A DNA stretch of 64,000 nt from Microtetraspora niveoalba. GTDB taxonomy: Bacteria > Actinomycetota > Actinomycetes > Streptosporangiales > Streptosporangiaceae. The translations under genes were made by a program, and so were the position numbers. The notes beneath the pieces were generated by a model. The model did not search any database and was not told the DNA's origin. It saw only the letters and a program-made list of their open reading frames with translations. This document shows positions 6,118-30,456 of this stretch, piece by piece. Within the stretch, counting starts at the first letter, position 1. Each line of letters starts with the position of its first letter. Location of the stretch: assembly GCF_001570405.1 (NCBI RefSeq), contig NZ_BBYM01000032.1, positions 1-64,000 on the forward strand, written 5' to 3'.

Positions 6118-6911
6118 AGTGCCACCCCCTTGCGACCCGCCGCCTCACGCCGGCGGGTGACCACGACGAACAGCGCGAGAAGCACGTACGTCGCGATGAC
6201 GACGAGCGCCGAGATCGAGGCCACCGCGGGATCCGCGCTGTCGAGGATGTGGCTGAACATGCGCACCGGCAGGGTGTTGGTTCCCGGGCCGACGAGGAAG
6301 AGTGTCACGGACACCTCCTGGAAGGAGACGATGGTTGAGAAGAGGAAGGCGGCCGCGATCCCCGGCGCGAGCTGGGGCAACGTCACCATGACGAAGGTCC
6401 TGACGGGGCCGGCCCCCAGCGTGCGGGACGCCTCCTCCTGGAACCGATCGAGCTGGGCGACGCCGGCGCTCACGGCGACGAAGGCATAGGGCATCGTGAT
6501 GATGAGGTGCGCCGTCATCAGGCCTGACATCGTGCCGTTCAGGGCGAAGGCGACCACGAGGCCGAGCAACGCGAGACCGACGGCGACCTTCGGCACCGCG
6601 AGCGGCAGCGTCAGGAGGAAGCCGGTCGCCGTCCCGCCCCGACGCAGTCGCCGGATGCCGAGAGCCGCTGCGGTGGCGGCGGCGGTCGAGCCCAGGGCGC
6701 TGACGAACGCGAGATTCAGGCTGGTGGTGAGCCCGGCCATCCACTTCTCGTCGCCGACGATCTCCTGGTACCACCTGAAGGAGAACCCTTCGGGCGGGAA
6801 GGTCAGCAGGGATCCCGACGTGAAGGACGCTCCGACGACGACCAGGATCGGCGCCAGGAGGAACCCGAAGCTCGCGACGAGCCAGCCGCGGCCGAGGATC
6901 TTGAGCAGCAT
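6114..6911 (-). CDS. ABC transporter permease, PotC type
   Basis: 265 residues, ATG start overlapping the previous stop (TGATG). Six hydrophobic segments are seen, with the conserved cytoplasmic EAA-like loop at EEASRTLGAGPVRTFVMVTLPQLAPG. It is the second inner-membrane subunit of the spermidine/putrescine-type importer encoded with the three genes upstream. Confidence 0.9.
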   Translation of the reverse strand: MLLKILGRGWLVASFGFLLAPILVVVGASFTSGSLLTFPPEGFSFRWYQEIVGDEKWMAGLTTSLNLAFVSALGSTAAATAAALGIRRLRRGGTATGFLLTLPLAVPKVAVGLALLGLVVAFALNGTMSGLMTAHLIITMPYAFVAVSAGVAQLDRFQEEASRTLGAGPVRTFVMVTLPQLAPGIAAAFLFSTIVSFQEVSVTLFLVGPGTNTLPVRMFSHILDSADPAVASISALVVIATYVLLALFVVVTRRREAAGRKGVAL

Positions 6912-7750
6912 CAGCGACCTGCCTTCGGCCCGACCCGGCGCTCGATCCAACCCAGGAGAGCGACGACGGGGAGGGTAAAGAGAATCAAGCAGAACGTGGC
7001 CACGGCTGCTCGTTCGGTGTTCGAGTTGCCGATGACGTCCTGGTAGATGAGCGTGGCGAGCATGCGATCCTTCAGGCCGCCCAGGAGGACCGGTGTGACG
7101 ACGGCACCCGTCGCGAGCAGGAACACGATGGTCGCTCCCGACACCACCCCCCGCGCCGTCATCGGCAGCGTCACCTTGACGAAGCGTCCGACCGGTCCGG
7201 AGCCGAGCACCGAGGCGGCCTCGAGAAGCCGCCAGTCGAGCCGCGCGAGAGAGCTGTAGATCGACATGATCAAGAACGGCACGAAGACGTGGACCATGCC
7301 GACGATCACGCTGAACGAGTTGTAGAGGATGCCGAGAGGGGCGTCGATGATGCCCAGGTCGAGCAGGACGGAGTTGATCGTTCCGCGTGGCGACAGCAGC
7401 ACCGACCACCCGTACGTGGAGATCACCAGGCTGATGAGCCACGGCGACAGGGACAGTACGAGAAGGGTGTACTTCAGGCCCGGTGACGAGACACGAGCGA
7501 TGGCGTACGCGATCGGGTACGCGACGACGATCGCGGCGAGCGTCGTGATCGCCGACACGCGGAGCGTACGGACGAGGATCAGCCGGTTGGTCTCCGACAT
7601 CGCGAAGTCGACGTAGCCGGCCAGGTCGAAGCCCCGGCCCGTCGGTCCCAGCCCCACCGAGACGCCGAAGAGACGGACGAAGCCGTAGAAGAACACGCCT
7701 AGCAGGACAAGTGCGGGCAACAGCAGCAAGGCCGGCTTGAGTTTGCTCAT
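6911..7750 (-). CDS. ABC transporter permease, PotB type
   Basis: 279 residues. It has an N-terminal membrane helix (LLLLPALVLLGVFFYGFV), about six helices in all, and the EAA-like loop LEAASVLGSGPVGRFVKVTLPMTARG. It pairs with the PotC-type subunit, whose start overlaps its stop. It follows the substrate-binding protein gene after a 13-base-pair stem-loop, which should lower permease expression relative to the binding protein. Confidence 0.9.
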   Translation of the reverse strand: MSKLKPALLLLPALVLLGVFFYGFVRLFGVSVGLGPTGRGFDLAGYVDFAMSETNRLILVRTLRVSAITTLAAIVVAYPIAYAIARVSSPGLKYTLLVLSLSPWLISLVISTYGWSVLLSPRGTINSVLLDLGIIDAPLGILYNSFSVIVGMVHVFVPFLIMSIYSSLARLDWRLLEAASVLGSGPVGRFVKVTLPMTARGVVSGATIVFLLATGAVVTPVLLGGLKDRMLATLIYQDVIGNSNTERAAVATFCLILFTLPVVALLGWIERRVGPKAGR

Positions 7751-20323: not shown

Positions 20324-21819
20324 GGCGTGCTCGTGGCCGCGAGCCGGCCGTTCACGCGCCGCGGCAGGCGCCAGGGGTTGGCCGCCCGCGCCTCGGGCGG
20401 GAGCCAGTCGTCGCGCACGGACTGGTAGGCCACCGGTCGGACGAACCGGGCCAGGCCATGCGCACCCACCGAGGTCGCCGACGGCACCGACGTCGACGGC
20501 CAGGGGCCCCCGTGCTGCTGCGCCCAGGTGAAGGCGACGCCGGTGGGCCACTCGTTCACCGTGACCCGCCCCGCCTTGCCGCTCAGCTGCGCCACCAGTC
20601 CCGGCGCCTGCTCGTCAGCCCCGGTGCCGACGAAGACGCCGGCCGCCAGCGAGGACTGGAGTCGCTCGATGACCTCCGCGAGCTGCCGGTCGTCGTCGTA
20701 CTCGCACACGAGGACGACGGCGCCGAAGCACTCCTCGAGCAGGCGGCTGCCGTGTCTCAGGGCGGTGATGTCGGCGCGCAGGACGGCGGCCGGCGCGGCC
20801 CACCCCGCGCCGGAGGACGGGATCTCCGCGACGAGCTCGGCTCCCGCCTCGACCATCGCCCCGAGTCCGGCGACCACGGCGTCCGCGATGCCTCGGGTCA
20901 ACATCACCGGGGTGGGGGCAGACGCTCGCAGCGCGGTGGCGACGGCGTCCGCGGCCCCCGACCCGGCCGGCGCGAGCAGCAGGCCGGGCTTGGTGCAGAA
21001 CTGGCCGTGGCCGAGCGTGAAGGAGCCGACGAAGCCGCGAGCGACCGCATCGACATCGGCGGCTCCGGCGCGGGTGAGGACGACCGGGTTGACCGTCCCC
21101 ATCTCGGCGTACACCGGGATCACGACCTCGCGCTCGTTGGCGATGCGCCAGAGAGCCAGGCCACCGGCTTGCGAGCCGGTGAAGGCCACGGCCGCGATCT
21201 CCGGGGCGCGTACCAGGTCGACGCCGACCTGATGACCGTTGACCACCGCGAAGGCGCCGGGCGGCGCGCCCTGCGCGGCGAGCGCCTCCTGGGCGATCTC
21301 CGCCTGCCGCATGGTCAGGCCGACGTGGGCGGGATGCGCCTTGACCACGACCGGACAGCCCGCGGCGAGCGCCGCTGCGGTGTCGTTGCCCAGCACGCTG
21401 AAGGCGAACGGAAAGTTGCCGGCGCCGAAGACCGCCACCGGCCCCATGGGGCGGTTGACCCGGACGAGGCCGGGGGTGGTGGGCGTGGGGTCGTCGATCG
21501 TGACCTCGAGGTAGGAGCCCTCGGCCGCGACGTCGCCGTAGAAGCGGAGCTGGCCTGCCGTCCTGGTGACCTCGCCGGTGAGCCGCTCGAGCCCCAGCGC
21601 GGTCTCGCGGTCGGCGAGCGTGGCCAGCTCGTCGCGGTGGAGCTCCAGGGCGTCCGCCATCGCGTGCAGCCAGCGACGGCGCTCGGCGGGGCTGGTCGCC
21701 GCCAGCGACGGCGCGGCGGCGTCCGCGCTCGCCAGCACCGAGGCGAGCAGCTCGGGGCCGGTCTCTGCGACGGTGGCGACCACACCGCCCGTCCGGGGAT
21801 CGAAGGAGGTGACGGTCAT
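20320..21819 (-). CDS. Aldehyde dehydrogenase, 2,5-dioxovalerate dehydrogenase-like
   Basis: 499 residues from ATG 21819, overlapping gabT in an ATGA junction. Motifs are the Rossmann segment GPVAVFGAGNFPFAF, VVKAHPAH, FTGSQAGG, Glu239 in YAEMGTVNPVV and the catalytic Cys275 in GHGQFCTKPGLL. This pattern matches NADP-dependent ketoglutarate-semialdehyde (2,5-dioxovalerate) dehydrogenases. Directly downstream of a GABA-type aminotransferase, it probably oxidises the semialdehyde product, such as glutarate or succinate semialdehyde, to the diacid. Confidence 0.88.
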   Translation of the reverse strand: MTVTSFDPRTGGVVATVAETGPELLASVLASADAAAPSLAATSPAERRRWLHAMADALELHRDELATLADRETALGLERLTGEVTRTAGQLRFYGDVAAEGSYLEVTIDDPTPTTPGLVRVNRPMGPVAVFGAGNFPFAFSVLGNDTAAALAAGCPVVVKAHPAHVGLTMRQAEIAQEALAAQGAPPGAFAVVNGHQVGVDLVRAPEIAAVAFTGSQAGGLALWRIANEREVVIPVYAEMGTVNPVVLTRAGAADVDAVARGFVGSFTLGHGQFCTKPGLLLAPAGSGAADAVATALRASAPTPVMLTRGIADAVVAGLGAMVEAGAELVAEIPSSGAGWAAPAAVLRADITALRHGSRLLEECFGAVVLVCEYDDDRQLAEVIERLQSSLAAGVFVGTGADEQAPGLVAQLSGKAGRVTVNEWPTGVAFTWAQQHGGPWPSTSVPSATSVGAHGLARFVRPVAYQSVRDDWLPPEARAANPWRLPRRVNGRLAATSTP

Positions 21820-23150
21820 CGGATGCTCCTCACGGCCTCCACGAGGACGTCCACGCCCTCGTCCAGCAGTTCCATGGGGATGACCAGTGGTGGCAGTAGC
21901 CGGATGACGTTCCCGAACGTGCCGCACTGGAGGGTGAGGACGCCCGCCTCGTGACAGCGTGCGACCACGGCTCGGGCGACGTCGGGCGCGGGCCGTCTGG
22001 TGCCGGGCCTGACGAACTCGAGCGCAAGCATGGCGCCGCGTCCACGGACCTCACCGACGACGGAGTCGGGACCGACGAGCGCCGCCAGCCGCGGCAACAC
22101 GCGCCGCTCGATCTCCCGGGCCCGGTCGACCAGCCCCTCGCTCTCGATGGCCTCGATGGCGCCCAGGGCGGCGGCGCAGGCGACCGGGTTGCCGGCGTAG
22201 GTACCGCCGAGACCGCCGGCGGGCACGGCGTCCATGAGGTCGGCCCGTCCGGTCACGGCGGCCAGCGGCAGACCACCTCCGAGCGCCTTCGCCGTGGTGA
22301 TGAGATCGGGGACGACGCCCTCGTGCTCGCAGGCGAACATCGCGCCGGTGCGCGCCAGACCGGTCTGGATCTCGTCGGCGACGAAGACGATGCCGTGCTC
22401 GTTCGCGAACTCCTGGACGCCCTTCAGATAGCCCGGGGGCGGCACGATGAATCCGCCCTCACCCTGGATCGGCTCGGCGACGATCGCCGCGACGTTGTTC
22501 GCGCCGATCTGCGTCGTCACGATCTCTCTGAGGGCCTCGAGACCCTCTGCCGCCGCATTCTCGGGCCCGGACGGCCAGCGATACGGGTAGGGAGACGGCG
22601 CCCGGTAGATCTCGGGTGCGAACGGGCCGAAGCCCTGCTTGTAGGGCACGTTCTTCGCGGTCATCGACATCGTGAGCAGGGTGCGCCCGTGGTAGGCGTG
22701 GCCCAGGACGACGACCGCCGGGCGCCCGGTAGCCGTCCGGGCGATCTTGATCGCGTTCTCGACGGCCTCGGCGCCCGTGCTGAACAACGCCGTCTTCTTG
22801 GCGTGGTCGCCCGGCGTCAGGCGGTTGAGCGCCGCCGCGACATCGACGAATCCGTCGTACTCGGTGACGAGGAAACACGTGTGGGTGAAGCGCTCCGCCT
22901 GCTCGGTGAGCCGCCGCACCACCGCGGGGTGGGACGCGCCGACGCTGGTGACCGCGATGCCGGAGGCGAGGTCGATGATGTGGTTGCCGTCGACGTCGAC
23001 GAGGACTCCCCCTCCCGCGCGGTCGATGAAGACGGGCATCGTCGTACCGAGGCCGTCTGCGATCTCGGCCCGTCGCCGCTCGTGGAGCTTGACGGACTTC
23101 GGTCCCGGTATCACCGTCGTGACGATGCGACGCTGTTCGGGTATGGACAT
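21816..23150 (-). CDS. gabT: 4-aminobutyrate aminotransferase family (class III, PLP)
   Basis: 444 residues, ATG preceded by GGAGG at 6-base spacing. PLP-binding motifs are FSTGAEAVENAIKIAR, HAYHGRTLLTMSMT, EPIQGEGGF, VADEIQTGLARTG and the Schiff-base Lys288 in TTAKALGGGLP. GabT enzymes convert 4-aminobutyrate, and often 5-aminovalerate, to the semialdehyde using 2-oxoglutarate. It is the first gene of the catabolic operon, with a candidate operator upstream, and overlaps the aldehyde dehydrogenase gene. Confidence 0.92.
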   Translation of the reverse strand: MSIPEQRRIVTTVIPGPKSVKLHERRRAEIADGLGTTMPVFIDRAGGGVLVDVDGNHIIDLASGIAVTSVGASHPAVVRRLTEQAERFTHTCFLVTEYDGFVDVAAALNRLTPGDHAKKTALFSTGAEAVENAIKIARTATGRPAVVVLGHAYHGRTLLTMSMTAKNVPYKQGFGPFAPEIYRAPSPYPYRWPSGPENAAAEGLEALREIVTTQIGANNVAAIVAEPIQGEGGFIVPPPGYLKGVQEFANEHGIVFVADEIQTGLARTGAMFACEHEGVVPDLITTAKALGGGLPLAAVTGRADLMDAVPAGGLGGTYAGNPVACAAALGAIEAIESEGLVDRAREIERRVLPRLAALVGPDSVVGEVRGRGAMLALEFVRPGTRRPAPDVARAVVARCHEAGVLTLQCGTFGNVIRLLPPLVIPMELLDEGVDVLVEAVRSIR

Positions 23151-24925: not shown

Positions 24926-27856
24926 TCAGGCCCCGAGTTCGCCGAGGGCTGCGCGGGAGCGGGCGATCTGCTCGCGAGTGCGGGCGGACCAGACGGGTTC
25001 GTTGAGCCGGCTGAGCAGGGCATAGCAGGCAGTGAAGTGATCAAGGGCCGCGCGTTCGTCACCCCGCCACCGGCAGATCTCCCCCAGGGCATACGCGGTT
25101 ATGGCCTCCCCTAGGGCGTCGCCGGCACGGGCGCACATCTCCCTGCAGTCGGCGAGCATGCGCGCGGCGCGGTCGAAACGGCCCAGCGCGCCCTCGGCCT
25201 CCGCCAGCCGGCGCAGCGCGATCCGCTCGCCGTTGTTCCATCGCAGCTCGCGGCTGAGGTCGAAGCTCATCCGGTAGTGGCCGACGGCCTCCTCGACCCG
25301 GCCCATCTCGTAGCAGGCGATCCCCATGCCGCGCCATATGCGGGCGCTGTGGACGACGCTCTCGCCGTCGGCGAGCGCAAGAGCGCGCCGGGAGGTCGTG
25401 ACGGCGTCGTCGTAACGGCCCAGGTACAGCTGAACTGCGGCGACCTCGGTCCACGCGGTCAGCAGGCCGTGCGTGTCGCCGAGGGTGATGAAGCGGTCGG
25501 CCGCCCGGGTGGCGACGGCCAGCGCGGACCGCAGATCGTCCTCCATAGTGGCGGCGACCCCGAGCAGCGCGTACGCGGCCGAGTGCCGGTCCCCCGCCCC
25601 TTCACAACGATCCAGCAGCCGGCGGAACTCCACGGCGACGGTGTGGGCGCGCCTGCGGTCCACTTCGGCGTCGGCGCGCACCAGCCGCAGGCGCGTCTCG
25701 GCGGAGGCGTCGCCTGCCCTCGCGGCGGCCTCGATCGCCTCCCCCAGCAGGTACACGGCGTCGTCGTGGAAACCGCGCAGGATGAGGAACGGCGCCAGGG
25801 CGTGGGCGAGGTCGGCCGACACCGTCACCAGGCCCGCCCTGGCCGCCGTCACCACCACCGCGATGAGCAAACTGCGCTCCGCCGACAGCCAGGCGCCGCC
25901 CTCGGCCGAGGGCGGCGTCCGCGCCGGGACGCCGGAAGGCGGCGGCGCGAAGGCGAGGGGCAACTCGCGCGCGGCGTCGGTGACCCGGACCCGCGCCTCG
26001 GCGGCGACCCGGCGCAGCGCCGCCTCCCGGCACCCTTCGCTCTCCTCGGCGGCGAAGAGCTCGGAGGCGAAGCTCCGCAGCAGGTCGTGCATTCGGTATC
26101 GGGGCTGTGCCGCCGCGTCGATGTCGCTCCCACTGATCAGACCGGCGGCGGCGAGCTCCTCCAGGGAGTGGTCGACGTCGTGCGCGGACGCGCCCACGAG
26201 CGCGGCCACGGTCCACGCCGCCACGCTGTCGGCCGTGATCGGTCCGAACATCCGGAACGCCTGCCGGGCCTGCGGGGACAGCGTCGCATAGCTCATCGCG
26301 AACGTGGTCCGCACGTCCAGCTGTCCGGAATGCAGCTCGTTCAGGCGCGCCGGCGTGTCGGTGAGCCGCCGGGCGAACTCGGCCAGCGGCCACGCGGGAC
26401 GCGTGACGAGGCGTGCTCCGGCGATGCGCAGCGCGAGTGGGAGCCGTCCGCAGGCGCGCAGGATCGCCTCCGCCGACTCCGGGTCGCTCTCCACCCGATC
26501 GGTGCCGGCCACACCCGCGAGCAGGTTGCGGGCGTCGGCGGGTGGCGGCACGTCCAGGGTGAGCGCGACCGCGCCCGGCATCGTGGGAAGGGGCCCGCGG
26601 GAGGTGACGATGACCGCCGACCTCGGTGTCCCCGGGACAAGCGGCCGCACCTGGGCCTCGCCGCCCGCGTCGTCGAGCAGCACCAGGACCGCACGGTCGG
26701 CGATCCGGGCCCGGTACATCGCCGCCTGCTCCTCCATGGAGGCGGGCATGACAGCGGCGTCCACGCCGAGCGCCCGCAGCAGTTCGGCGAGTAGGTCGGC
26801 CGGGTCGCGGGGGGACGGCGAGGCGCCGCCCAGCCGGACGAACAGCTGTCCGTCGGCGAATTCCTCCCGCAGTTGGTGGGCGACGTGCACGGCCAGCGTG
26901 CTCTTGCCGACGCCGGGCGGGCCGGACACGACCGCGATCGCGGGCGCCGCGCTGCCCCGGTCGGTACGGCCGGCTGTTGCGCGCAGCGCGGCGATCACCT
27001 TGCGCGTCTCGGACTCGCGCCCGACGAAGTCGGCGATGTCCGCGGGGAGCAGGCAGATCCCCCTCCACGCGGGCTCCCGCCGCTCAGCCGCGTTCGGGGC
27101 GGATGCGTCCAAGACGGCCGCCGGTGCGGCCGGTTCGACGGGAGCGTCGTTCAGGATCGCCGCGTGCAGGTTCCGTAACTCCTGCCCCGGCTCCACGCCC
27201 AACTCGGCGACGAGCACCGACCGCGCCCGCCGGTACGCCTCCAGCGCCTCGGCGCGCCGCCCCGCCCGGTGCAGCGCCACCATGAGCCGATGCCACAGCC
27301 GTTCGCTGAGCGGGGCGGTCTCCACCAGCGGGGTCAGTTCGGCAACGAGTTCGTCGTGCAGGCCGAGCCGCAGGCGCACGTCGATCCAGTCGAGCCTGGC
27401 GCTCTCCCTCCTCTCCTCGAGTTCGGCGATGCGCGCGGTCACCGGCCCGGCCAGCGGCACGTCCTCGGCGGGCCTGCCGCGCCACAGCGACAACGCCCGC
27501 GCGAACAGGCGGTGGGCCTCGGCCAGGTCGCCGCGCGCCGACTCCAGACGTGCCTGCCGTACGGCCTCGTCGAAGGCGAGGAGATCGAGCCGGTCGGGAT
27601 CGAGCGTGAGGAGGTAGCCCTGCCCCTGTGTCTCCACCTCGATCGCGGCCTTGCGGAGCACCGCCACATAGGTCTGCAGGTTGGCCAGGGCAGATCTGGG
27701 CGGGTCGTCCCAGACCGAGGCGATCAGCCGGTCTCTGGAGACGACGGCGTTCGGATGGAGCAGGAAGGAGCTGAGCACCGCGCGCGGCTTGGCCGCTAAT
27801 CGCACGGGCCGCCCAGCCTCAGCGATACGGACCGGTCCGAGGATCGCAAAGTCCAC
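24926..27856 (-). CDS. AfsR/SARP-type transcriptional regulator
   Basis: 976 residues, GTG start preceded by GGGAGG at 5 bases. Residues 1-90 form the OmpR-like winged helix, about 95-240 the BTAD domain, about 270-520 an NB-ARC ATPase with the P-loop SGPPGVGKST (311-320), and about 700-970 TPR-like repeats. SARP proteins activate secondary-metabolite operons. It faces the peptide-E1-protease module across 130 bases, so that module is the probable target. Its 3' end lies close to the gene-remnant region. Confidence 0.9.
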   Translation of the reverse strand: MDFAILGPVRIAEAGRPVRLAAKPRAVLSSFLLHPNAVVSRDRLIASVWDDPPRSALANLQTYVAVLRKAAIEVETQGQGYLLTLDPDRLDLLAFDEAVRQARLESARGDLAEAHRLFARALSLWRGRPAEDVPLAGPVTARIAELEERRESARLDWIDVRLRLGLHDELVAELTPLVETAPLSERLWHRLMVALHRAGRRAEALEAYRRARSVLVAELGVEPGQELRNLHAAILNDAPVEPAAPAAVLDASAPNAAERREPAWRGICLLPADIADFVGRESETRKVIAALRATAGRTDRGSAAPAIAVVSGPPGVGKSTLAVHVAHQLREEFADGQLFVRLGGASPSPRDPADLLAELLRALGVDAAVMPASMEEQAAMYRARIADRAVLVLLDDAGGEAQVRPLVPGTPRSAVIVTSRGPLPTMPGAVALTLDVPPPADARNLLAGVAGTDRVESDPESAEAILRACGRLPLALRIAGARLVTRPAWPLAEFARRLTDTPARLNELHSGQLDVRTTFAMSYATLSPQARQAFRMFGPITADSVAAWTVAALVGASAHDVDHSLEELAAAGLISGSDIDAAAQPRYRMHDLLRSFASELFAAEESEGCREAALRRVAAEARVRVTDAARELPLAFAPPPSGVPARTPPSAEGGAWLSAERSLLIAVVVTAARAGLVTVSADLAHALAPFLILRGFHDDAVYLLGEAIEAAARAGDASAETRLRLVRADAEVDRRRAHTVAVEFRRLLDRCEGAGDRHSAAYALLGVAATMEDDLRSALAVATRAADRFITLGDTHGLLTAWTEVAAVQLYLGRYDDAVTTSRRALALADGESVVHSARIWRGMGIACYEMGRVEEAVGHYRMSFDLSRELRWNNGERIALRRLAEAEGALGRFDRAARMLADCREMCARAGDALGEAITAYALGEICRWRGDERAALDHFTACYALLSRLNEPVWSARTREQIARSRAALGELGA

Positions 27857-27986
27857 TTTCGCCTCCCGAATCCGCTCAGCGAAAACCCCCGACGAGGACC
27901 CTTTTGACCTTCTGTAGCGACTTTATGGGGATTCTGTGGGCGCGCATAGGAGCTTGATCGAAGACATCCGAAAGGAGGTGGGCTCA
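27857..27986. promoter_or_regulatory. Divergent promoter region, SARP gene and peptide module
   Basis: 130 bases separate the SARP start from the 18-codon ORF start. The region is less GC-rich than its surroundings (CCCTTTTGACCTTC, CGACTTTATGGG). A plus-strand TTGACC at 27904-27909 is a possible -35 box, but no well-spaced -10 box is seen. AAAGGAGGTG at 27970-27979 is the ribosome-binding site of the small ORF. Confidence 0.5.
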
Positions 27987-28043
27987 GTGAAGATCGAGGT
28001 TCGCAAGGTCGAGGCGGTCAAGGCGACCCAGTTCATGACCTGA
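27987..28043 (+). CDS. 18-residue candidate precursor peptide
   Basis: GTG start. The product is MKIEVRKVEAVKATQFMT, with no cysteine. AAAGGAGGTG lies at a good distance upstream, close to a full match to the 16S rRNA 3' end, so translation is very likely. It is followed by a strong hairpin and then by an E1-like and a membrane-protease gene, both with N-terminal regions that look like peptide-recognition (PqqD/RRE) domains. It could be a modified-peptide precursor, as in microcin C systems, where a 7-residue peptide is adenylylated by the E1-like MccB. It could instead be a regulatory leader peptide. The final product is unknown. Confidence 0.65.
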   Translation: MKIEVRKVEAVKATQFMT

Positions 28044-28064
28044 CGCGCCGCCTGTCAGTAGATC

Positions 28065-28093
28065 GGCGGGGGACGGCGCGACCGTCCCCCGCC
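28065..28093 (+). terminator. Attenuator-like hairpin between the peptide and E1 genes
   Basis: Perfect 12-base arms GGCGGGGGACGG (28065-28076) and CCGTCCCCCGCC (28082-28093) enclose the 5-base loop CGCGA and are followed by CGTTTCG. Partial termination here would make much more peptide mRNA than enzyme mRNA, which is common in peptide natural-product operons. Confidence 0.75.
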
Positions 28094-28124
28094 CGTTTCG
28101 TCCGATCGACCCTCTGGAGTGGCG

Positions 28125-29213
28125 ATGCGAGTGATATTGAAAGAGTGCGCCTGGGAAGCCCTCGGTGACGACCTCATCGTGGTCCACGACCCGCGTGAGG
28201 CGTTCACCCTGGCCGACCCCGAAGGCCGGATCGCGGCGCTCCTCGACGAGCTCGGCCGCGGGCCCGCGACGGCGGAGAAGCTGAGCGCCGCGCTGACCGC
28301 GCGGGGCTTCGCCGCCACGGTCGCGGACGTCCGGGACGGGCTGGACGGACTCGACTCCCTCGGCCTGGTCGAGAACGCGGACGAACGGTGGCTGGGCGCG
28401 CCCGACGCCGACGAGCGCCACTTCTCCAACCTGACCTTCTTCGGCTCCTTCGCCGGACTGCACACCTCGCGCGCGGAATTCGTCCGGCGGTTGCGCGACT
28501 CGCACGTCCTCGTGCTCGGCGCCGGCGGCGGCGGCTCCTCTCTCGTGCAGTGCCTGGCGGGGCTCGGCGTCGGCGCGCTGACGCTGGTGGACCGCGACGA
28601 CATCGCGCCGCGCAACTTCGCCCGACAGTTCCTGTACCGGCATGTCGACATCGGCCGGTCGAAGGTCGACCGCGCCGCCGAATGGGTGCGCGAATACGAC
28701 CCCGGCATCGAGGTCCGTGCCGTCGACCGGTGGATCTCCGGCCCCGAGGACCTGAAGGACCTCACCGAGGACGTCCACGTGGTGGCCGGCGGCCTGGACG
28801 GCGCTCCGGACGCCAACCTGTGGGTGAACGAGGCCGCACTGCGCGCGGGGGTCCCTCTCGTCGCCGGCGGAATGACCCGCACGCAGCTCATCTACTTCTC
28901 CGTCGATCCGGGCAAGAGCGCGTGCCTGCGATGCGACGAGTCGGACCTGCCCGACCCGGACGAACACTCCTCGGCGGGGGTCGCCCACCGGCTCACCCGC
29001 GGGCTCCGGCTCGCCAACGGGCTCACCGGGCCGATGGCCATGCAGGTCGGCTCGCTGGTCGCCTACGAGGTCATGCGCTACCTGACCGGCATCGAACCGC
29101 CGCGGGCCGCCGGGTCCCGTGTCATCCTCGACCTGCGCAACGGGCTCATCCCCACCTGGGAGCCGTTCCCCCGCGACCCCGACTGCCCGGCGTGCGCTCT
29201 GGCCCGGCGGTGA
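28125..29213 (+). CDS. E1/ThiF-like adenylyltransferase with N-terminal recognition-like domain
   Basis: 362 residues from ATG 28125, chosen because GGAG (28116-28119) lies 5 bases upstream; a GTG at 28119 would overlap it. Residues 1-90 resemble a PqqD/RRE-type domain. The adenylation domain has GAGGGG (132-137), VDRDDIAPRNFARQ with Asp156, Asn164, Arg167 and Gln168, and Asp225 in GGLDGAPDAN. Zinc is probably held by Cys267, Cys270, Cys354 and Cys357. E1-like enzymes adenylylate a C-terminal carboxylate; here the likely substrate is the 18-residue peptide or its modified form. It is followed by an M50 protease gene after 4 bases. Confidence 0.85.
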   Translation: MRVILKECAWEALGDDLIVVHDPREAFTLADPEGRIAALLDELGRGPATAEKLSAALTARGFAATVADVRDGLDGLDSLGLVENADERWLGAPDADERHFSNLTFFGSFAGLHTSRAEFVRRLRDSHVLVLGAGGGGSSLVQCLAGLGVGALTLVDRDDIAPRNFARQFLYRHVDIGRSKVDRAAEWVREYDPGIEVRAVDRWISGPEDLKDLTEDVHVVAGGLDGAPDANLWVNEAALRAGVPLVAGGMTRTQLIYFSVDPGKSACLRCDESDLPDPDEHSSAGVAHRLTRGLRLANGLTGPMAMQVGSLVAYEVMRYLTGIEPPRAAGSRVILDLRNGLIPTWEPFPRDPDCPACALARR

Positions 29214-29217
29214 CGGG

Positions 29218-30456
29218 ATGAACGGCACCACGGTCCCGCTGCGCCCGCTCACCCTGGTGGAGGAGGGCGATGAGGTACTGGTCGGCGATCCCGACACCGG
29301 CACGTTCGTGACCATGCCCGCCGTGGGCGGAGTGGTGATCTCCGCACTGCTGCGCGGCGCGACCGCGGAGGAGGCCGCCGCCGAGGCCGAGGCGTTCGCC
29401 GGGGAGCCGGTCGACATGCCGTCGTTCGTGGCGACCCTCGCCGAACTCGGCTTCGTGGACGATCGGCCCGGCGAGGAACGTCAGGCCGCTCGCACCGCAC
29501 CCATCCAGATGCGCCGCTGGATGGGCTGGGTGAGCCAGCGGATGGCCCGCCCTTTCTTCGGCCCGGTGGCCTGGACCGGCTACGTCGTCCTCGCGTCGTT
29601 CTGCCTCGCCGTCTTCATCACCTCGCCGTCCCTGTTCCCGAGCCCGGCGCGGGACGCGTTCCTGTTCGACGACATCGGGCTGAGCGCCCTGCTGCTCATG
29701 CCGTTCGTCATGGTCTCGACGGCCCTGCACGAGTGCGGGCACTGGCTCGCCGCGCGAGCGATCGGCGTCAAGTCCCGCTTCGGCATAGACCGGCGGATGA
29801 TGCTGCTCGTCTTCGAAACCGACCTCACCCAGGTGTGGACGGTGCCCCGCCGCCAGAGGTACGGCCCACTGCTCGGCGGCATGGCGACGGATGCGGCCGT
29901 GCTCAGCCTGCTGCTGGGGGCCCGCCTGCTGATCCAGCAGGGACTGTGGGCGCCGCCGCAGCCGGTGGACGCGACGCTCGCGGTGTGGGTGTTCGTGAAG
30001 CTGGCCGGCTTGCTGTGGCAGTGCATGATCTTCCTGCGCACCGACCTGTACGCGGTGCTGGTCAACGCCCTCGGCTGCCGCGATCTGTGGCGGGTCAAGA
30101 CGCTGCTGCTGCGGCGGGCGTTCGGCCGCCTCACACCCGAGCAGGCCGAGGAACTGGCCGGGGCCGCCCCCGCCGACCTGCGGGCCGGCCGCTGGTTCCG
30201 TTGGCTGTGGCTGGCCGGATTCGTCGGCGTGCTGGCCTGGTTCGTCTTCTTCGTGGTCCCCGTCGCCGTGACCGTGCTCCGGTGGGCGGCGGACGGTCTC
30301 CTCCTCGGACCGTTCGACCTCCGGTTCTGGTACTCACTGCTGTGCACGGCCCTGCTGCTCGGCCCGGTAGCCCTCGCCATCTACCTGACAGCCAGGGAGT
30401 ACGCCCTCTGGGCCCGCGTACGGACATTGCTCGTGCGCCGGACGCGCCTCGACTGA
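29218..30456 (+). CDS. M50-family membrane zinc metalloprotease
   Basis: 412 residues. Residues about 8-85 resemble a PqqD-like domain (VEEGDEVLVGDPDTGTFVTM, LAELGFVDD). About six membrane segments follow. The zinc motif is HECGH (171-175) in STALHECGHWLAARAIG; a third ligand is probably Asp276 in FLRTDLYAVLVNALGC, as in M50 peptidases associated with peptide natural products. It should cleave a substrate within or next to the membrane, for example to release a mature peptide. It starts 4 bases after the E1-like gene. No ABC exporter gene is present nearby. Confidence 0.85.
   Translation: MNGTTVPLRPLTLVEEGDEVLVGDPDTGTFVTMPAVGGVVISALLRGATAEEAAAEAEAFAGEPVDMPSFVATLAELGFVDDRPGEERQAARTAPIQMRRWMGWVSQRMARPFFGPVAWTGYVVLASFCLAVFITSPSLFPSPARDAFLFDDIGLSALLLMPFVMVSTALHECGHWLAARAIGVKSRFGIDRRMMLLVFETDLTQVWTVPRRQRYGPLLGGMATDAAVLSLLLGARLLIQQGLWAPPQPVDATLAVWVFVKLAGLLWQCMIFLRTDLYAVLVNALGCRDLWRVKTLLLRRAFGRLTPEQAEELAGAAPADLRAGRWFRWLWLAGFVGVLAWFVFFVVPVAVTVLRWAADGLLLGPFDLRFWYSLLCTALLLGPVALAIYLTAREYALWARVRTLLVRRTRLD

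Follow-up and report, generated by a model that had tools for sequence, protein, structure and literature searches.

A probable compact ThiF/E1-type RiPP operon with an 18-residue precursor in Microtetraspora niveoalba

Can an open reading frame (ORF) of only 18 codons, followed by two enzyme genes and faced by a regulator gene, be the precursor gene of a modified peptide? The question is raised by positions 27857-30456 of a 64,000-nucleotide stretch of the actinobacterium Microtetraspora niveoalba (contig NZ_BBYM01000032.1; the whole stretch is hereafter the window), where the short ORF, a hairpin, an E1/ThiF gene and an M50 protease gene all lie on the + strand. An earlier interpretation from the letters alone (hereafter, the sequence-only reading) had proposed that the E1-like enzyme activates the C-terminus of the peptide and the protease matures it. 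Our analysis points, with good confidence, to a compact ThiF/E1-type operon for a ribosomally synthesized and post-translationally modified peptide (RiPP), in which the E1 would adenylate the peptide C-terminus, an M50 protease fused to a RiPP recognition element (RRE) would remove the leader, and a Streptomyces antibiotic regulatory protein (SARP) would activate expression. The evidence for this reading consists of a conserved leader, a variable core, the gene association, the predicted folds and conserved operator-like repeats.

The 18-codon ORF is a real gene

The ORF extends from a GTG at 27987 to a TGA ending at 28043 on the + strand and encodes MKIEVRKVEAVKATQFMT, comprising a 14-residue leader, MKIEVRKVEAVKAT, and the predicted core QFMT. 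It is preceded by the Shine-Dalgarno sequence AAAGGAGGT (27971-27979, +), and the motif AAGGAGGT occurs within 20 bases 5′ of an ATG or GTG at only two starts in the whole window, both strands considered, one being that of the precursor, in agreement with the near-perfect ribosome-binding site noted in the sequence-only reading. More telling is the behavior of this ORF in homologous loci, which were gathered via E1 or M50 and never via the peptide. A short ORF with a related leader is present in all 35 named loci found by E1 alignment (L084-L118). A 13-position leader matrix, built from 24 motifs of loci seen earlier and run over both strands of 126 loci that hold E1 and/or M50 (106 distinct E1 sequences), yielded matches above 12 bits in 124 loci and above 20 bits in 122, compared with none above 12 bits in 126 dinucleotide-shuffled loci and none in the remaining 50 kb of the window. 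Because the seed motifs stem from earlier loci, only the loci chosen by M50 (L172-L231), which were picked from the upper part of the M50 list rather than drawn at random, constitute a clean test; here, the leader was matched in 59 of 60 loci, the miss being L222, and in 43 of 44 once loci with an E1 identical to an earlier one were set aside. Around other E1-domain matches (L013-L030 and L033-L060), which served as a control for specificity, 3 of 46 loci scored above 12 bits (17.7, 17.7 and 12.6), none with a Thr-ending leader. Thus, as the sequence-only reading required, homologous E1-M50 pairs come with a conserved short ORF, and ORF 27987-28043 is a real gene.

The 82 distinct leader and core pairs define a clear pattern: all 82 have I, L or V at position -12 and L, V or I at -7, 72 have R or K at -9, and 77 have T at -1. 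One of the 5 exceptions at -1 is a register slip in L071, which also accounts for its tail of 15 residues; the other four carry Ala at -1 together with Cys at the second core position. The tails span 4-14 residues across loci and 4-6 in the clade of the window, and end in Asn in 18 of the 82 distinct cores and in Thr in 8, QFMT of the window being among the cores that end in Thr. In 18 distinct versions chosen by E1 (within L084-L104), comparison with the window shows 48 silent and 18 replacement changes in the leader codons, whereas the four-residue cores, found in 13 of these versions, display 0 silent and 23 replacement changes; every version was compared with the window, so that these changes are not independent events. 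When versions are instead selected by their first nine leader residues, which introduces a bias, the counts are 37 silent and 7 replacement changes in the leader against 0 and 20 in the four-residue core. This combination of a conserved leader and a variable core is the pattern of RiPP precursors.

Several precursors stand out. The four with Ala at -1 (L149, L150, L209 and L081) have tails such as VCSNSTGN and ICSNSYGN, and L071 contains several tandem precursor genes with different tails 3′ of a single E1-M50 pair. The genome of the window itself holds two further E1-M50 sets with precursors (L075 and L076). The location of the precursor is variable. De-duplicated cases place it ahead of E1 (68), between E1 and M50 (27), behind M50 (11), behind E1 in loci that lack M50 (4) and on the opposite strand (1); in 4 cases there is no E1. 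Given that these precursors are so short, gene callers probably miss many of them.

The hairpin 3′ of the precursor stop (28065-28093, +), which the sequence-only reading called strong, does have a perfect 12-bp stem (28065-28076 pairing with 28082-28093), but the window fold is no better than that of shuffled sequences (z -0.8); z is at or below -2.0 in 36 of 62 distinct regions downstream of precursors, where a hairpin thus tends to be found. It might act as a partial terminator favoring peptide over enzymes.

Two enzymes that probably read one leader

The E1 gene (28125-29213, +; 362 aa; a GTG at 28119 is a possible alternative start) belongs to the ThiF-like adenylyltransferases, matching PF00899 with an E value of 1.4e-47. 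Residues R167, K180 and D225 are invariant in 12 as well as in 29 aligned homologues, and their counterparts in EnfB are ATP/Mg residues (excerpts of PMC12250964). Searched against solved structures, the E1 profile retrieved at the top PaaA (2.8e-52, covering the RRE and the catalytic parts from position 3) and MccB. The E1 model (mean predicted local distance difference test score, pLDDT, 93.1; RRE at model residues 1-84) aligns with MccB from end to end, N-terminal peptide-binding domain included (E 1.9e-23, template-modeling score, TM, 0.77, 18% identity, 361 columns). The zinc tetracysteine that had been noticed in the sequence is represented by C267, C270, C354 and C357, all invariant in the 29 homologues; no other Cys is invariant among these, so an acyl-disulfide of the ThiF type appears unlikely.

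The M50 gene (29218-30456, +; 412 aa) encodes a membrane metalloprotease with an HECGH motif. Its Pfam M50 match is weak (E 0.0019, below the curated cut-off); residues H171, E172, H175 and D276 are invariant in 30 aligned homologues. In the model (mean pLDDT 91.1), the N-terminus adopts a strand-strand-strand-helix-helix-helix order and resembles the lasso-peptide RREs TbiB1 and TfuB1 by fold (probability 0.98-1.00, E 0.015-0.14) and by profile (E 0.0078 for TbiB1 and 0.33). Hence both N-terminal regions, proposed earlier to be RRE-like, are modeled as RRE folds. NCBIfam has no model scoring above cut-off for E1 or M50, and the peptide stretch has no match there.

The two enzymes are separable. 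In G971 (L218) and G015 (L229), the precursor occurs with M50, and the only E1-domain matches lack the RRE region; L218 carries three tandem precursors with the tails IYMPI, GCIMI and ICIPS. Conversely, G007, G025 and G036 have the precursor and E1 and no such M50. Because either enzyme occurs with the peptide without the other, E1 and M50 each probably read the leader separately, and one leader would appear to be read by two distinct RREs. Given that no RRE-E1 was found in the L218 and L229 genomes, the E1 step is not always needed.

To chart the distribution, an E1-profile search of the phylum (up to 5 candidates scored per genome) was crowded by housekeeping MoeB/ThiF and was replaced by the M50 profile, with which 394 genomes of the class (up to 4 candidates scored per genome) and 297 Streptosporangiales genomes (up to 6) were searched. 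In the class, 26 M50 sites in 17 genomes scored above 245 bits, the next score being 106 bits, with a profile that includes some of these very sites. E1 and a precursor accompany 17 of the 26, and no E1 was seen in the stretch covered for the remaining nine. These nine form a sister branch (L159-L167), in which a related short ORF lies just 5′ of M50 in every locus (for example, L161, 5596-5676 of its reverse strand); examples of the products are MKKIKIRKAGPVRLT followed by AAACSIYKNVS and MKKIVVRKPGTVRLT-AMACYCYGCCCCGGRAAI. Some of these loci also contain a SARP, a TPR protein and an old yellow enzyme, and in L164 no HExxH was seen in a long open frame. The sister branch may represent a further RiPP group that has yet to be described. 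Of the 297 sampled Streptosporangiales genomes, 95 contain a matching M50 (E <= 1e-40), with up to 4 per genome and both branches counted, so that this RiPP-like family is frequent in the order.

The E1 of the window is 94% identical to its nearest named relative, from Sphaerimonospora thailandensis, in another genus, and the congeneric genomes G001-G003 have distant E1 matches alone (32-36% identity), which suggests that the present distribution reflects transfer or loss. Among the sister sets, a DUF6879 gene lies near the precursor in L074 and L076 (Pfam), L083 (clustering) and L151 (by eye). In L069, the product of an ORF 3′ of M50 (about 6898-7650) resembles a YcaO protein by eye.

The regulator and the possible role of the peptide

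As the sequence-only reading had it, a SARP gene faces the operon (24926-27856, - strand, divergent). The product is a large, AfsR-like regulator with a DNA-binding and a BTAD domain (Pfam BTAD, 3e-39), an NB-ARC/STAND ATPase and TPR; the NCBIfam AfsR model matches at 3.3e-138 but far below its cut-off. Homologues (BLAST E <= 1e-15) are encoded in 64 of 125 other loci, repeats included. Between the two transcription units lie three heptamers in exact 11-bp steps, TGTAGCG-N4-TATGGGG-N4-TGTGGGC (27913-27941, +). Such a triplet, 43-71 bases 5′ of the start codon, occurs in 19 of 22 distinct regions upstream of precursors of the KIE[VI]RKVE leader type and in 0 of 93 other distinct regions, although the pattern was drawn from an alignment that holds part of the tested regions. 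It has a single match in the window, both strands counted, at this site, and all 17 matches on both strands of the 35 named loci (892 kb) precede a precursor. SARPs recognize direct repeats with a spacing of 11 or 22 bp (excerpts of PMC10936776), with 11-bp units in the classical case (excerpts of PMC5930380). The triple heptamer is thus likely, as a prediction from sequence, to be the operator of the divergent SARP, and so offers a concrete candidate site by which an AfsR-type SARP is linked to a peptide gene.

The other flanking genes are not part of the conserved set. A GABA transaminase gene (21816-23150; its product scores above the cut-off of the GABA transaminase model) has a homologue in 2 of the 125 other loci, and three others that were tested have one in 0 of 125, the flanks of some loci being short. 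Given this rarity, the unit probably consists of the SARP, precursor, E1 and M50 genes. Three small genes and an activator make a set that is easy to test.

We propose the following course of events, in which adenylation, leader removal and SARP binding are assigned by homology. The SARP would bind the triple repeat and start transcription of the precursor, and the hairpin probably sets the yield of the enzymes per peptide. The RRE of E1 would bind the 14-residue leader, placing the C-terminal carboxylate of the short core (QFMT in the window) for adenylation. The acyl-adenylate would then be captured by a nucleophile, the candidates being limited to Thr -1, the backbone, the new N-terminus and an outside amine, because cores such as GFAV and AAPPV offer no nucleophilic side chain. 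The RRE of M50 would bind the same leader, and the protease would cut at or near the conserved Thr that ends it, freeing, probably at the membrane, a peptide of some 4 residues (as many as 14 in relatives). By analogy with characterized enzymes, E1 activation of the C-terminus and M50 cleavage at or near Thr -1 are quite probable; the cleavage site, the order of the steps, export and role we infer.

Several observations weigh against this scheme. L218 and L229 combine the peptide with M50 in genomes (93% and 99% complete) where RRE-E1 was not found, and a recognizable precursor is missing from 2 of the 126 loci (L079 and L222). The M50 model has no fold match at E <= 0.001, and there is no transporter among the five flanking proteins scanned. 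Furthermore, the core lacks a conserved nucleophile, with AAPPV and GFAV devoid of any polar side chain, so that the linkages of known E1-RiPPs (Glu-Cys and Trp-Ile) are not transferable; if the scheme holds, these E1s would extend the known chemistry to cores of this kind.

What, then, might the product do? One refinement of the proposed scheme, which we regard as a serious if tentative possibility, is that the product acts as a small modified peptide antibiotic or some other effector and that the SARP is simply the usual activator of its pathway. SARPs activate antibiotic biosynthesis (excerpts of PMC10936776), two antibiotics, microcin C and pantocin A, are E1-RiPPs (excerpts of PMC12250964), and a major facilitator superfamily gene adjoins several sister loci (Pfam MFS_1 for one). 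However, no conserved transporter or immunity gene accompanies the window-type operon, among neighbors that are not fully annotated in the relatives, and relatives seldom or never carry homologues of the four other flanking genes tested.

Eep is an M50-type protease, and the locus invites comparison with peptide signaling, in which the released peptide, with its E1-modified C-terminus, would be an autoinducer sensed by the SARP-NB-ARC-TPR protein, as in SHP-Eep-Rgg of streptococci, where the regulator binds the peptide. The recurrence of the SARP, the operator-like repeats directly 5′ of the precursor, the hypervariable core and the tails of 4-6 residues in the clade of the window all fit, as do the maturation of SHP pre-peptides by the membrane metalloprotease Eep (excerpts of PMC13361665) and the presumption that AfsR-type SARPs, being STAND proteins, are inactive without a stimulus (excerpts of PMC10936776). 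Yet a simple test for co-variation of receptor and core gave no signal beyond distance, the identity of the TPR region falling smoothly with that of the DNA-binding domain; in 61 of the 125 other loci, the examined stretch contains no such SARP, and SARPs commonly just activate antibiotic genes. Signaling is doubtful, and its fullest form, a self-contained actinobacterial module with a tetrapeptide pheromone, perhaps closed into a ring by E1 via Thr, released by RRE-M50 and sensed by SARP-STAND-TPR, is unlikely. If true, this fullest form would give an AfsR-type regulator a peptide ligand.

The ring is a specific chemistry within the proposed scheme: E1 would join the peptide C-terminus to Thr -1 in a macrolactone resembling autoinducing peptides. 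The prevalence of Thr at -1 (77 of 82 distinct pairs), the four real exceptions replacing it with Ala and having Cys at the second core position, and the thiolactone made by the ThiF-like GrcB (excerpts of PMC12250964) would suit this, but Thr may simply mark the cleavage site, and L218 and L229 keep it without any RRE-E1 in the genome; we consider the macrolactone improbable. Finally, the alternative left standing by the sequence-only reading, that the short ORF does no more than control the E1 and M50 genes as an attenuation leader, as its location before them and the ensuing hairpin in the window might suggest, can be practically dismissed, because the amino acids are kept through silent change while the position varies, with the peptide lying between E1 and M50 or after M50 in relatives, in tandem copies in L071 and L218, and also without E1.

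Relation to known RiPP and signaling systems

The compact operon proposed here has much in common with the RiPPs of ThiF-like adenylyltransferases (MccB of microcin C, PaaA of pantocin A, GrcB, EnfB of enterofaecin and IndF), with which it shares the RRE-E1 fusion, R167/K180/D225 and a short cognate precursor. The EnfA leader motif (V/I)RKA (excerpts of PMC12250964) resembles (V/I)RK(V/L)E here, and a protease is present in the ind cluster as well (excerpts of PMC12150305), although of type M16 there and M50 here. Unlike these systems, the operon is actinobacterial and adjoins a SARP, with a 4-residue core in the window and no conserved C-terminal residue or nucleophile. In microcin C, the nucleotide is carried by the Asn at the end of the substrate; the core of the window ends in Thr, which rules out an N-P bond of the microcin C type on Asn for this peptide. 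GRC thiolactone RiPPs, which also have radical SAM partner enzymes, require a core Glu and C-terminal Cys as a pair, neither of which is found in QFMT.

On the protease side, there is a close parallel with daptides, where leader removal is assigned to the RRE-fused site-2 protease MpaP (excerpts of PMC10036551); MpaP, compared by description only, likewise has an N-terminal RRE on a membrane protease encoded beside a short precursor. Daptide clusters also encode an oxidative decarboxylase, an aminotransferase, a methyltransferase and a DUF-RRE protein; the class III aminotransferase of the window (21816-23150) is not conserved, leaving daptide membership unsupported. Daptide precursors have a C-terminal Thr; the core of the window ends in Thr, but only 8 of the 82 distinct cores do. 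The M50 proteases of epipeptides (EpeP) and pearlins (TglG and TmoG) act on RiPP peptides (excerpts of PMC10885120), as proposed here, but TglG and TmoG free a C-terminal residue from a reusable scaffold, in contrast to the hypervariable tail of several residues in our loci. SHP-Eep-Rgg similarly combines a short peptide gene, a peptide-processing membrane metalloprotease and a dedicated regulator (excerpts of PMC13361665); here, an E1 is present in addition, and the regulator is of the SARP-STAND-TPR type.

In keeping with the sequence-only reading, which knew of no described system with exactly this set, none of the open-access papers that we consulted describes an E1-M50 RiPP. The term metalloprotease is absent from PMC12250964, a review of ThiF-RiPPs, a text search finds no M50 in PMC12710340, PMC7470986, PMC6511847 and PMC8442711, and the global ThiF-RRE mining paper points to further unexamined clusters in a supplementary figure (excerpts of PMC12150305). 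E1-RiPPs and RRE-M50 leader peptidases are each known; what seems unreported is that the two are paired, on a precursor this short and with a SARP as regulator.

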